In this document: positions 41,980 through 48,363 of the stretch, one piece after another
How positions within the stretch are numbered: position 1 is the stretch's first letter
Layout of the letters: every line of letters starts with the position of its first letter
NCBI GenBank assembly: GCA_031266555.1
Contig: JAISAU010000024.1
Location: 1 to 64,000, forward strand
Reading direction: 5' to 3'
Source: Campylobacteraceae bacterium
GTDB lineage: Bacteria > Campylobacterota > Campylobacteria > Campylobacterales > Campylobacteraceae
Length of the DNA stretch: 64,000 bases
Translations under genes and position numbers: made by a program
The notes under the pieces: generated by a model
The model's input: the letters and a program-made list of their open reading frames with translations, nothing else
What the model was told of the DNA's origin: nothing
Databases searched by the model: none

Positions 41980-44900
41980 TTAAAAACTGTATTTGTATCC
42001 GAGATTTGCTTTTTTGTTATTAAAACTATCTCCGATTTGATAAGTTCCTTCAAAATATATATGATGGTCGTCGCCTATAGTTGACGTGATACCTACCGCG
42101 TTATCAAACACATCTCCGTCTAACTTGTAAGTTTGCTTATCGCCGCTACTATTAAAACTATACGATATATCGCCGTCAAACTCTTTTATATATCCTATCT
42201 TATAATATACGTTTGTTTTATCTTTGAGGCTGTAACCAATAATAGTTCCCGCTCTTCCCAAGATTGAGTTATAGCTGTCAAACTTTGTCTTTAAACCAGA
42301 CGACGCGACGCTTGTTCCTGACGATTGTTTGCTAAAGGTAAATTCGGCTTGAGGCTCTATATAAAAACCGCTGCCGACATTAAATCTTTTTCCGCTCTCA
42401 ATAGATAAAGAGTACGAGTTAGCGTTCGCGTCTCCTTTTATATACGCTCCGTTTGAGGTTGTCATGTCAAACTCATTGTCATTTTTCGTATATTTTAAAA
42501 GAGTGTCGACATAAAATTTATTCTCATTTTTATATGAGGCGTATAAACCAAAATCATAAGAACTGACCTCTCCGTTTCCTTGCTTATAATTAATATCCGT
42601 TTTTGAGACGCCAAACGTAAGACCTATAAAACCTTTAGCGTTTCCAATATTATATATCCTGTCAAATCCCGCTTGTAACCCGTAGTAGGAAGTATCTTGT
42701 ATATTAAATTTTTTATCAAACGAATCCAGCTCTCCCGCATATGTTCTAACCCAAATATCATCAAGCGTATCTCTGTCGGTGTCAAGCTCTCCCATTCTTT
42801 GAAGCAGCGTTTGAGTATTGGCGTAGTTGGAGATATAGTTTATATTGGAAAAACTTATTGACGAGGAAGCTATAGGGTTTATAGTGGGACCGCCGGACGA
42901 ACCGCCGCCGGAATTATTGGAAATTCCTGTGGTTAAATATTGGGTATTGTTTATATCGTTTATGCGATAAGTATACGCTCCTATATAAACCTCGCCTGTA
43001 AATACGGCGTTATATGTTCCGCTTTGATTTTGCTCCACAACCAAAAATGTTTCGCTTCCATCAACTGTGTAACCTCCTAAAGCGCTATCGTCAAATATCA
43101 ATTTGTGATTTCCCGAAGAGCTGTCGTTTATCGTTATCAAATCCCCAGTTTCGCTTAAATTTATTCTTTGATAAAAAACTCCGTTGCCTGAAAGATTGTC
43201 AATAATCAGATTCGCGTAAGATGGGCTTTTGGTTAAATCAACTTTAGCTTCGTTTGTTAAGGAAAGATTTGTCAAAGAGGAGTTACCTTTTAATCTCCAT
43301 AACGAGTTACTTCCATCAAGCGCTAAATCTATGCGTCCGCTGTTCAGTATCGTGTTTCCTATAAAAGTGGAACCCTCTTTCAAATCCAAATCAACAATAC
43401 CGTTATTTACAGCCGTTATATCTCCCAAGATATTCAATTTTGACGAACCGCTTGTTTGGATTATGCCGTTTGAGGCGGAATACAAAGCATAAGAATTATC
43501 GCCAAGAACCGATATATTTGTATTGGTATTTAAAACAATCCCTACAACCGAATCATTATTGCTTCTGCCTTCAACAAACAAAGCGTGAGAACCGTCTCCC
43601 TCTGTAGAGATATAAGAGTTTTTACCAATGACAGTAGTCGCATTGCCAGCATATGAGGGAGTCGTCCCAGCGTACGCTAAAGTATGAACGGCGTGAGAAG
43701 CGTTTCCTATGGTAGCTATAAAAGCGTTATCGCCGACTGTAACATTGCTTCTATCATAAGTCTCAAGAGCGGTGGCAGTATTTCCATGCGTTAAAATGGT
43801 CAAATTGTCGCCGAATGTTCCCACACTTCTTTCCCTGATTTGAACGCCTACGGCTTGGTTTCCATATGTGGTTATTAGGGCGTTATTACCTAAAAGCAAA
43901 TTACCGTAACTGCCTCTGATTTTTATGCCAAAACCTCCTTCGTTACTGCTGCTCTGACCCGTATATCTTCCCTCTCCGTATGTAGTTATTCGCGCGTTAT
44001 CGCCTATTATGACATTCGCGTAACTGCTGGCGCTTATCGCGCTGGCGTCATATCCATATGTAGTTATAATAGCGTTATCGCCTGTAACAAAAAAAGAACT
44101 TACCGAACTATCTCCTGTAAACTGTACAGCATGCGGATTATTTGTCCCTGTGGGAGTCGCGTTGCCATATGTCGTTATGACGGCATTGTCTCCCAAAAAA
44201 ACTCCTTTTGAGGCGCTATCAATCATTATTGCTTTGGAACCGTTGTTTCCGTATGTAATAATGGTCGCATTATCGCCCATATAAACGGCTGCATTTGTAT
44301 TTCTGGCGGCAACAGCAAAAGCGTTCGCTCCTTGCGTGCTTACCAACGCGTTATCACCTATGGTGATATCAGAATTTTTAACGCCCATATAAATTCCATA
44401 AGACCACCACCCTGTAGTTGGCGATAGTCCGCATTGTCCGCAATTTGGGTCTCCTCCTATCGTAACTATAGATGCGTTATCGCCTATAGTTATATGAACA
44501 TTATCATTACCGGTAGAGCCAATACCGCCTACACCGTAACTTCCAACTCCCGTTGTCAAAATATTCGCGTTATCGCCGATAGTGATGCTTGAGTTAAAGC
44601 CGGCGTATACTCCGTGACTTCTGCTTTGGGATGGAAAATCCGAACCGTACGTAATTATGTTGGCGTTATCTCCTATGTTGATATTGGAATTAGACGTTGC
44701 GTAAACGGCGTGAGAATCGGTACCGTTTGTAACTATATAAGCACTATTACCTATACTGATATTTGAACCGCTCTGTGCATTAAGAGCATATGAACCAACG
44801 CCGTTTGTGCTTACAAAAGCGCTGTCTCCTACGTCTATATTCGCACCGTTTTGAGCATTAATTGCATGCGAATTTGCGCCTGTTGTACTAATGTTAGAAC

Positions 44901-46713
44901 CATCCGCTATGGTTATATCTGCGGCTGATGAAAGCAAAGCATAAGCCCCGTTGCCTTTTGTCAAAATATAAGAGTTATCGCCTATATTTATATGTGAACC
45001 GCTTTGCGAATAAACAGCTGACGAACCGTCGCCTTCTGTAGTTATGCTTGAGTTACCGCTTACATTTATATCAGAATATACTTGTGCCGCAAGCGCGTAA
45101 GAGTTTATACCCGCCGTACCGACAGAAGCGTTATCCGCTATATTTATGCTTGAACCAGCGTCAATACTTCTACCCTCGGAAGTAACGGCATAAGAACCGT
45201 CTCCTTGTGTAGTTATAAACGCATTTTTTCCTATAATGGTAGTCGCATTGGCATTGCTTGTTGAAGTGCCTACTAAAGTGCGAACCGCATGAGAGACATC
45301 TCCTTGCGTAATTATAAAAGCGTTATCGCCAACTGTAACGTTACTCCTATCAAATGTCTCAAGAGCGGTGGCAGTATTTCCATATGTTAGGATAGTTAAA
45401 TTATCGCCGAAAATTCCTACGCTTTTCTCTCTGATTTGCACTCCCAGCGATTGATTTCCGTATGTAGTTATGATGGCGTTATTGCCTACCGTAATCTTAT
45501 CGTCTCCAACGCCATCATAACCATTTCTGATTTTTATACCAAAACCGCCTTCATTATTGCTACTCTGACCCGTATATCTTCCTTCTCCATATGTAGTGAT
45601 ACGCGCATTATCGCCTATTGATATACTTGAATCGGTAAATTGAACCGCGCTGGCAAGATACCCATAAGTAGCTATATTGGCGTTATCGCCGATAATTAAA
45701 TTCGCTCCCCCTCCTCCATATACCGCATGAGGCTGACCGTTGTATCTGCTGTCGTCATAATAAATCGTCGTACCTGTGGAAGTTATAACAGCATTGTCGC
45801 CTATCGTGGCATTTCCTCCGCTTAACATACTTACCGCATGTGAATTACGATTTCCATTTGCGGTAATAATCGTATTATCGCCAATATACGCGACACTGCT
45901 GGCTCTGCCAAGATTTAGCGCACTTCCCCATCCTTGAATGCTTATGTTTGCGTCATTGCCTATTATTACTGTAGAACCGACAGCCGTAGTGCCTAAGACA
46001 TAAACCGCGGTAGACGCCCACCCTTCGCCTATCAACCCGCACATTCCGCAATATTGGTTACCTCCTATGGTAGCTATAGTCGCATTATTACCGATAAGTA
46101 AAATAGAATCCTCATAAGTAGCGACGCCGTAACTGCCAACTCCAGTTGTCAAAATATTCGCGTTATCGCCGACAGTAACGTTTGAATATTGCGCTCTAAT
46201 CCCATAACTCGTACTGACAGGCACTGCAACGCCGTGAGTTGTCGGAGGTATGTCGGGACCATAAGTGCTTATTTTGGCATTATCCCCTATATTTATATTT
46301 GAATAACTTTCCGCGTTTACAGCATGCGAATTAGTGCTATTTGTAATCAAATTCACATTATTGCCTACACTGATATTAGCGCCGTTTTGTGCGTAAACGG
46401 CATAAGCGTTTGCGCCTTTGGTATCAACGTTTAATCCGTTAAAACTCCAAGTTCCGTTATTGTTGTTATGCACGCCGTGCATACCGCCGCTTGTTACGCC
46501 TACCTCCAACAATGACGAACTTGAAACTCCGCTTGAAGCGTTCGCGTAAATATCCGAATTTACCGTTTCATCGCAAACTACATGTCCTCCTCCCAAATCA
46601 ACGCAATCAGCGTTAAGATTTGAAACCAAAAACAAACCGACAAAAATAAAAATATAAGAAAAACTTCTCACACTTTTCTTGTTGTCGCAACTATTTGAGT
46701 ATATTTTATACAT
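41980..46713 (-). CDS. Large autotransporter with beta-helical repeat passenger
   Basis: 1577 residues. Signal peptide to about residue 36 (ending LNADC). Passenger of about 1200 residues consists of some 45 repeats of 20-25 residues built on (I/V)GDNA-x-I-x-T-x-G-x3-(Y/H)-A-(V/L), a beta-helix. A Ser/Gly linker (GGGSSGGP near 1280) precedes the 290-residue outer-membrane beta-barrel (WVRTYAGELDSFDKKFN onward), ending LGYKYSF with the terminal Phe recognised by BAM. A block of about 400 residues in the passenger is present twice, and each copy contains a CGxCG motif. Likely a surface adhesin or biofilm factor. Confidence 0.92.
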   Translation of the reverse strand: MYKIYSNSCDNKKSVRSFSYIFIFVGLFLVSNLNADCVDLGGGHVVCDETVNSDIYANASSGVSSSSLLEVGVTSGGMHGVHNNNNGTWSFNGLNVDTKGANAYAVYAQNGANISVGNNVNLITNSTNSHAVNAESYSNINIGDNAKISTYGPDIPPTTHGVAVPVSTSYGIRAQYSNVTVGDNANILTTGVGSYGVATYEDSILLIGNNATIATIGGNQYCGMCGLIGEGWASTAVYVLGTTAVGSTVIIGNDANISIQGWGSALNLGRASSVAYIGDNTIITANGNRNSHAVSMLSGGNATIGDNAVITSTGTTIYYDDSRYNGQPHAVYGGGGANLIIGDNANIATYGYLASAVQFTDSSISIGDNARITTYGEGRYTGQSSNNEGGFGIKIRNGYDGVGDDKITVGNNAIITTYGNQSLGVQIREKSVGIFGDNLTILTYGNTATALETFDRSNVTVGDNAFIITQGDVSHAVRTLVGTSTSNANATTIIGKNAFITTQGDGSYAVTSEGRSIDAGSSINIADNASVGTAGINSYALAAQVYSDINVSGNSSITTEGDGSSAVYSQSGSHINIGDNSYILTKGNGAYALLSSAADITIADGSNISTTGANSHAINAQNGANIDVGDSAFVSTNGVGSYALNAQSGSNISIGNSAYIVTNGTDSHAVYATSNSNINIGDNANIITYGSDFPSQSRSHGVYAGFNSSITIGDNANILTTGVGSYGVGGIGSTGNDNVHITIGDNASIVTIGGDPNCGQCGLSPTTGWWSYGIYMGVKNSDITIGDNALVSTQGANAFAVAARNTNAAVYMGDNATIITYGNNGSKAIMIDSASKGVFLGDNAVITTYGNATPTGTNNPHAVQFTGDSSVSSFFVTGDNAIITTYGYDASAISASSYANVIIGDNARITTYGEGRYTGQSSSNEGGFGIKIRGSYGNLLLGNNALITTYGNQAVGVQIRERSVGTFGDNLTILTHGNTATALETYDRSNVTVGDNAFIATIGNASHAVHTLAYAGTTPSYAGNATTVIGKNSYISTEGDGSHALFVEGRSNNDSVVGIVLNTNTNISVLGDNSYALYSASNGIIQTSGSSKLNILGDITAVNNGIVDLDLKEGSTFIGNTILNSGRIDLALDGSNSLWRLKGNSSLTNLSLTNEAKVDLTKSPSYANLIIDNLSGNGVFYQRINLSETGDLITINDSSSGNHKLIFDDSALGGYTVDGSETFLVVEQNQSGTYNAVFTGEVYIGAYTYRINDINNTQYLTTGISNNSGGGSSGGPTINPIASSSISFSNINYISNYANTQTLLQRMGELDTDRDTLDDIWVRTYAGELDSFDKKFNIQDTSYYGLQAGFDRIYNIGNAKGFIGLTFGVSKTDINYKQGNGEVSSYDFGLYASYKNENKFYVDTLLKYTKNDNEFDMTTSNGAYIKGDANANSYSLSIESGKRFNVGSGFYIEPQAEFTFSKQSSGTSVASSGLKTKFDSYNSILGRAGTIIGYSLKDKTNVYYKIGYIKEFDGDISYSFNSSGDKQTYKLDGDVFDNAVGITSTIGDDHHIYFEGTYQIGDSFNNKKANLGYKYSF

Positions 46714-46950
46714 ATTAGCCCCTCTCCATTAATAGATTGCGAATTATATATCTTGAAATATTAAAATGATATTAATAACGATATGTATTATCAATATAAA
46801 TTTCACGATTGTCAATAATTTTTGAGCCGTTTTGTTGGTTGAAGCATATAAATGCGCCTTAATATGCGAGAAACTTATCGTTTCATTTAAATATAATTTC
46901 TTACATGTAACTATAAATCCTACGAAGACTTAAAGCTCTTAGAGCAAAAT

Positions 46951-47305
46951 TTAGTTGAACTGGAATAAAGATTATATTGAAATAAATTGCTGTCTTGATA
47001 ATAATGAAAGCAATTTAATTAAGTTGAACCAAAACAAGTATTGTGTTGAAATAAGAAGGTTACGATGCACCGTTCTGTATCGCTGTTGCGTTGAACAAAA
47101 ACAAAGGTTGTATTGAAATCAAAAATATGACGCTTGGGATATAGGAATATACACTAAGTTGAACTGAGACAAGTGTTGTCTTAAAATCGGCAAAGCGTTA
47201 GAAACTGTTTTAGACGCTTTAAGTTGAGCTGAAAGTGTTGTATCAAAATCTTTTGCGGCGAATTTTGTAAAAAGTAAAAGAACTTTGTAAGGTTGTATTG
47301 GAATA
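46951..47305 (+). CRISPR. Degenerate CRISPR-like array
   Basis: Five diverged copies of a roughly 35-base repeat with core GTTGAAC near its start and GTTGTATTGAAAT near its end: 46951-46984, 47019-47053, 47086-47120, 47154-47188 and 47219-47250, plus a sixth partial copy ending at 47305 (GGTTGTATTGGAATA). The GTTGAAC (or GTTGAGC) cores start at 46954, 47023, 47090, 47158 and 47223, spacing 65-69 bases. The intervening 30-34-base segments are all different. The middle of the repeat can form a short hairpin (ACAA-GTG-TTGT). No cas gene is in the window. Copies differ at several positions, so it is a relic. Confidence 0.65.
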
Positions 47306-47338: not shown

Positions 47339-47640
47339 TACATGTAAGCACATGTAGAGCAAATATATATGTTAATCAACAAAATAATTTCATACATGTA
47401 ACGCTTTTAACTGCTTTTATACAAAATTTTATTTCAAAAATAATCTATACATGTAACCGCATGTGAAGTAAAATAATAATTTAATACAGGCGTATTTGGT
47501 TAACTACCAAACATAATTTCATACATGTAGTGTTTTTAACTGCTTTTAACAAAGTTTCCATCTCAAAAAATAATCTCTACATGTAGAGCAAAATATATGT
47601 TAATCAATAAAATCATTTCATACATGTAGCGTTTTTTGAC
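47339..47640. repeat. Tandem repeat of a 110-120-base unit containing ACATGT palindromes
   Basis: The unit begins (A/G)CATGT(A/G)-(G)AG(C/T)-AAA, includes ATGTTAATCAA(C/T)AAAAT(A/C)ATTTCATACATGTA, then GTTTTTAACTGCTTTTA and ends AAAATAATCT(A/C)TAC. Starts are near 47349, 47459 and 47579, giving nearly three copies. Each holds an ACATGT near the beginning and another in the middle. Seven ACATGT copies occur in 300 bases. No coding frame. Confidence 0.75.
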
Positions 47641-47718: not shown

Positions 47719-48363
47719 TTAATTTAGCGCGTAACCTATCTCTTTAACTATTTTTATGGCGTTTTCGGGAAGTTTTTTACGTAACCTCTTGATAAGCGCT
47801 CTTATGTTTAATATGGAAGTATCCTCGCCCTCCCATATATACTCTTCCATTTCGTTAAACGTGACGATACGCTGACGATTTTTTACAAAAAGCTCAAAAA
47901 ATAGTATCTCTTTTTTCGCGAGCGGTATCTCTTTGCCTTTGTCGTCATATAGTCTGCTATTTTCATAATTAAACGTATATCCGCCCGTTAGGTTTATAAC
48001 AGAAATTGTTGAAGACCTGCAAAACTTTTTAATTTTTTGCAAAAGCTCGTAATTAAAAAACGGCTTTTTCAAATAATCGTCAGCCCCTATTTCATAAGCT
48101 TTTTGAATATTGTCCAATTCGTGATTTGAACTAATGATAATAACCGGCACATTTTTGTGATACATTCTTATAGTGTCAAGTATGCTTATGCCGTCAACGG
48201 ATGGCACATTTATATCTAAAACATAGCAGTGATAACCGTTATTTATCGCGTTTAACGCCTCTTCTCCATCATAAAAAACATCCGCTTTAAAGTCTTCTTG
48301 TTCTAAAGTGACTTTTATCAAATTCGCCAATCTCTCATTGTCTTCCAAGACTAAGATTTTCAT
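47719..48363 (-). CDS. OmpR-type response regulator
   Basis: 214 residues. Receiver domain 1-115 with acidic pocket E7/D8, phosphoacceptor Asp50 (YVLDINVPSVDG), and Lys near 99 (DDYLKKPF). C-terminal winged helix (about 125-214; KKEILFFELFVKNRQRIVTFNEMEEYIW...RALIKRLRKKLP). Start overlaps the kinase stop by four bases. Controls unknown genes; the autotransporter and the asparaginase-dcuA-aspA group are neighbours. Confidence 0.92.
   Translation of the reverse strand: MKILVLEDNERLANLIKVTLEQEDFKADVFYDGEEALNAINNGYHCYVLDINVPSVDGISILDTIRMYHKNVPVIIISSNHELDNIQKAYEIGADDYLKKPFFNYELLQKIKKFCRSSTISVINLTGGYTFNYENSRLYDDKGKEIPLAKKEILFFELFVKNRQRIVTFNEMEEYIWEGEDTSILNIRALIKRLRKKLPENAIKIVKEIGYALN

Follow-up and report, generated by a model that had tools for sequence, protein, structure and literature searches.

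A leaderless, decayed orphan array of type I-B CRISPR repeats, very probably a relic, in a Campylobacteraceae genome

Isolated or orphan CRISPR arrays have been read as remnants in Listeria monocytogenes, Enterococcus faecalis and Streptococcus pyogenes (PMC5294841), and genomes carrying multiple arrays at distant sites are known (PMC12814883). Degenerate ectopic repeats can also have a function, as in CreTA / CreA (PMC9458426). The array described here, found in a window of 64,000 nucleotides (the whole stretch of DNA analyzed, on contig C12 of its assembly), is very probably an orphan, leaderless and decayed type I-B CRISPR array, a relic. The host genome was assembled from a metagenome, belongs to the Campylobacteraceae, and is 74.6% complete in 25 contigs totaling 1.52 Mb; its closest named relatives are likewise Campylobacteraceae metagenome-assembled genomes. 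To judge by the sample codes and by surveys of this kind, host and relatives are probably from termite guts.

Four copies of a 30-nt repeat lie on the plus strand, starting at 46954, 47023, 47090 and 47158, and agree with the consensus GTTGAACTGAAACAAGTGTTGTATTGAAAT, which was derived from another contig, at 24, 26, 26 and 27 of 30 positions. Dinucleotide shuffling of the window, repeated 100 times, never produced a site with as many as 23 of 30 matches, and across the whole genome the true repeat pattern gave 9 forward and 79 reverse matches, against none for a control pattern with its letters reversed. Two damaged copies follow on the 3' side of R4, ending at 47249 and 47304 and roughly in register; a repeat search ties them to the array by shorter segments in common, R5 scoring a weak 7.7 bits in the repeat profile model and R6 going unscored by it. 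Repeats and spacers, all on the plus strand, are as follows.

46954..46983, plus strand: repeat R1, a degenerate type I-B repeat, GTTGAACTGGAATAAAGATTATATTGAAAT; 24/30 to the intact-array consensus, E=1e-5
46984..47022, plus strand: spacer S1, 39 nt, with an 8-bp hairpin; unrelated to the other spacers, folding z about -2.8
47023..47052, plus strand: repeat R2, degenerate; 26/30, E=8e-8
47053..47089, plus strand: spacer S2, 37 nt, unique; 20-nt core without an exact viral-contig match
47090..47119, plus strand: repeat R3, degenerate, AAAGG variant; 26/30, E=2e-8
47120..47157, plus strand: spacer S3, 38 nt, unique; 20-nt core without an exact viral-contig match
47158..47187, plus strand: repeat R4, degenerate; 27/30, E=2e-7
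47188..47222, plus strand: spacer S4, 35 nt, with a hairpin
47223..47249, plus strand: repeat R5, damaged by a 3-nt deletion; shared segments, 7.7 bits
47250..47279 (3' boundary uncertain), plus strand: spacer S5, about 30-33 nt, between R5 and R6
about 47280..47304, plus strand: repeat R6, damaged, its 5' part lost; shared segments, no model score

A sequence-only reading of this DNA had described diverged repeats with unique segments between them, and both the description and its coordinates proved correct (24-27 of 30 positions matched, intervening segments unrelated), with several dimensions in need of revision. The repeat is 30 nt long, not about 35 bases; the segments between repeats measure 33-39 nt (about 30-33 for S5) rather than 30-34; and the proposed 65-69-base interval describes the first three distances between successive repeat ends (69, 67 and 68) and fails for the last two (~62 and ~55). 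CRISPR arrays are recognized by direct repeats of 24-40 nt, regular spacing and unrelated spacers of similar length, and this array shows 30-nt repeats at a 67-69-bp period from R1 to R4. Its five intervening segments are mutually unrelated, scoring pairwise like shuffled sequence (p = 0.54), which rules out an ordinary tandem repeat, an outcome in favor of the earlier reading. The repeats are not near-identical: they depart from the nearest active repeat at 3-6 positions (just 3-4 in R2-R4), two copies carry deletions, and no two copies in the window are the same. It is on this divergence and these deletions that we call the array a relic and not an active array. Other orphan copies share the AAAGG variant of R3, and so does the final repeat, the oldest, of the intact array described below. 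As had been foreseen for automated finders, Tandem Repeats Finder missed the array.

The array region has no match to phages or plasmids at a meaningful E-value, and a phage or plasmid origin of the region is accordingly rejected; the 20-nt cores of S2 and S3, the two spacers scanned, have no exact match among viral contigs. Rfam places no family in the array region. For two of the five spacers, S1 and S4, the predicted hairpins are better than those of most shuffled versions, a weak effect, and orphan spacers as a group fold little more strongly than those of intact arrays (mean folding z -0.53 vs -0.30), so that a structured-RNA reading is rejected as well. Within the surrounding 1.5 kb, 12-nt seed matches of the spacers do not exceed those of shuffled spacers, and no CreA-like target was found.

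One of the checks proposed earlier, looking elsewhere in the genome for an intact array of this repeat, succeeded. About 77 copies of the window repeat occur at C21:187339-192407 on the minus strand, at 64-69-bp intervals, mostly identical to one another. At its leader-distal end this array has an older variant of the repeat, its last repeat is degenerate, and it extends to a contig end. In a congener, G006, the same repeat family adjoins genes for products matching Cas1b, Cas4b, Cas3b, Cas5b, Cas7b and Cas8b, and because that copy adjoins a type I-B cas operon, we assign the repeat family to type I-B. No cas gene lies near the window array, as the sequence-only reading had said of the 64 kb. 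The wider search for cas genes that it called for turned up a type V-A locus elsewhere (cas12a, a short cas4, cas1 and cas2 at G000:C20:1-5910, G000 being the host genome), whose type V-A Cas1 is the only Cas1 found in the host; type I-B Cas3 and Cas7 queries from G006 were unmatched in the 74.6% complete assembly, as was Cas10. With an assembly this incomplete, and an intact array that stops only where its contig does, the sequence still missing may include a type I-B cas operon. The window repeat is not a type V-A repeat: the host's own V-A repeat ends in AATTTCTACTATTGTAGAT, and the V-A stem pattern is unmatched in the window. V-A arrays are present on other host contigs (C8:4695-5037 and C22:104-701), and a solitary V-A repeat just upstream of cas12a (C20:5872-5889) is possibly a control element of CRISPR origin.

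Seven array starts in five genomes have a leader in common, including ...TTATCATTGTTAATATTGATTGGAAAAAGTTCAAA..., with pairwise alignment scores of 80-252. Nothing at the window array resembles this leader above shuffles. The leader is also missing from nearly all other degenerate arrays, the exception named being a four-repeat array of G003. Pattern and profile searches revealed six or seven further degenerate mini-arrays in the host genome.

C11:16878, C13:233783-234071, C17:24452, C21:84327-84540, C23:18378 and C24:136800: sister degenerate arrays of the host genome
C13:247326: a weak sister degenerate array of the host genome

The relic at C21:84327 has two spacers, along with repeats, in common with a relic in G005 (G005:C28), at 84% identity over 147 bp. 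By hand count on that alignment, repeats differ at 15/109 positions and spacers at 10/69 (about 14% each), and such equal divergence is what loss of function and neutral decay predict, the comparison of rates having been made on this relic, a different one from the window array. The window array itself has no recognizable ortholog in 13 congeners. At the tsaD site, an array is large in G010, has more than 20 repeats in G005, and has only four diverged repeats plus leader in G003, a series that suggests arrays shrink in place at fixed sites. Within R1-R4, 13 of 17 changes are transitions. Changes fall preferentially on positions that vary between active arrays, both in the orphan repeats (52/84, with 30% expected) and in the window repeats (11/17, p = 0.006), and therefore some of the divergence was inherited from older versions of the repeat or is constrained, rather than being pure decay.

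The array sits in a 1005-bp intergenic region between an autotransporter gene and a response regulator gene, and is not part of a gene.

41980..46713, minus strand: autotransporter gene, 1577 aa, with Pfam Autotransporter and Pertactin domains
46714..46822, minus strand: conserved promoter block of the autotransporter gene, outside the array, 87% identical in G005
47719..48363, minus strand: OmpR-type response regulator gene, with Pfam Response_reg and Trans_reg_C domains

The promoter block (109 bp) can also be aligned in G006, G009 and G010, and a promoter scan places a promoter-like site, TTGACA-17-GATAAT, within it at 46815-46787; the array begins 130 bp upstream of the block. G006 keeps the gene order asparaginase, kinase, regulator, autotransporter, and its syntenic intergenic region between regulator and autotransporter contains no array, the remainder beyond the promoter block being unalignable. 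At the response-regulator loci of the other relatives, no repeat scored comparably. In most of these a different gene comes after the regulator, and for this reason the junction of regulator and autotransporter probably arose by rearrangement. The flanks of two other orphans, G000:C13:233783-234071 and G000:C17:24452, lie at separate places in G005 or G006. Orphan arrays may thus sit at rearrangement breakpoints, in a genus whose gene order is generally shuffled.

Other repeats occur in the same neighborhood. A 60-nt direct repeat on the regulator side of the relic array, still upstream of the response regulator's coding region as read along the plus strand (window positions 47381-47440 and 47510-47569, 80% identical, 129 bp apart), looks like a local tandem duplication. 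The palindrome TACATGTA has 40 sites in the window (e.g. 46902, 47339, 47393, 47448, 47522, 47578 and 47621), where about 1 is expected; 27 of the 40 are intergenic. Genome counts of TTACATGTAA are 287 in the host, 138 in G006, 78 in G005 and 1-32 in other relatives, against 0-3 for a backwards control; on these counts TACATGTA/TTACATGTAA is a short palindromic site that has expanded in a lineage-specific way. A type V-A repeat of G001 (G001:C76, L100:1013-1824; G001:C117, L101:976-1273) mostly has TTACATGTAA, though some copies have TTATGCATAA instead, an alternation by which the palindrome is kept as its letters change. Because that repeat contains TTACATGTAA, the TACATGTA copies of the window were considered as a second relic array and rejected: they lack the V-A stem, their spacing is irregular, and the host's own V-A repeat lacks the motif. 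In G003, a further short repeat, GTTTTATTGTTACATGTAAACTGTTTCTAT, recurs regularly every 66 bp close to a fabG-like gene (G003:C47:326-541, L102) and may represent a third type of CRISPR repeat in the genus.

The sequence-only reading had left two fates for the repeats, an ancient and inactive array or one that was co-opted. The unrelated spacers and the intact array with the same repeat bear out the CRISPR reading itself, and the array is most likely functionally inert today. Co-option would make it a regulatory mini-array: its crRNA-like RNAs, directing a type I-B Cascade or working by themselves, would control the neighboring autotransporter or some other gene in the manner of CreA or scaRNA. 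Where ectopic repeats have a proven role, they are typically degenerate (CreTA, PMC9458426), this array lies upstream of a surface-protein gene, and its repeat changes cluster where active repeats tolerate them. We nevertheless regard co-option as very unlikely, in that the array has no leader, no seed match above chance and no counterpart at the syntenic locus of G006, which leaves the proposal unsupported; it also stands outside the conserved promoter block, has six repeats against the one or two typical of CreTA, and belongs to an incomplete genome with type I-B Cas3 and Cas7 unmatched. The same missing matches weigh against an array remote from its cas genes but still in use, as old memory, with a type I-B effector from outside the assembled sequence processing its crRNAs. 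The intact array with nearly the same repeat implies that such an effector is probably present, or recently was, arrays far from a cas locus are common (PMC12814883), and R2-R4 are only 3-4 positions away from the nearest active repeat; but the missing leader, the deletions in R5 and R6, and the failure to find a meaningful phage or plasmid match for the array, or a viral-contig match for two spacer cores, make continued use highly improbable.

That the feature is no CRISPR array at all, only a chance resemblance or an ordinary intergenic repeat family, has the lack of identical copies in its favor and is almost certainly wrong, being refuted by the intact array with the same repeat, the CRISPR-like spacing, the unrelated spacers and the empty controls. 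For the genus as a whole, there is an outside chance that the dispersed leaderless type I-B mini-arrays are not dead, and that Cas6-processed crRNAs from them provide a second, frozen memory or regulate surface-protein genes in the vicinity; processing by Cas6 is conceivable because most of the variation in the repeats is at positions where active repeats tolerate it too. Very probably, rather, the window array is a decayed relic, and its history may be reconstructed as follows. The six repeats and five spacers would once have belonged to an active or longer array, either as a piece that rearrangement detached from an older array or as the remnant of an old array site after leader loss. With the leader and any link to cas genes lost, spacer uptake would have ended, and point mutations and small deletions would have accumulated in intergenic space, disturbing nothing.

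Taken alone, the window array is an ordinary fossil, and the picture across the genus is more useful. Intact arrays, site-matched arrays of differing size and diverged relics with shared spacers form a series from which the death of arrays could be dated and the speed of their decay judged, and the relics could serve as a control set for claims of function in degenerate ectopic repeats. With the type I-B CRISPR-Cas system of G006 the window array shares its repeat family, a repeat length of 30 and a spacer length of about 36, and it differs in having no leader, no nearby cas genes and diverged repeats. CreTA / CreA resembles it in having degenerate repeats outside the main array and in being type I-B; the window array, however, has six repeats instead of one or two, does not adjoin cas genes, and has spacers without a seed match to a neighboring promoter. 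Like the isolated arrays of PMC5294841, it has no nearby cas genes and is read as the remnant of an older system, but its repeats are individually diverged and truncated, and several fragments of this kind occur in its genome alongside an intact array from that family. Leaderless, decayed orphan arrays are a known kind, and all that is unusual here is how many fossils a genome of this genus carries.
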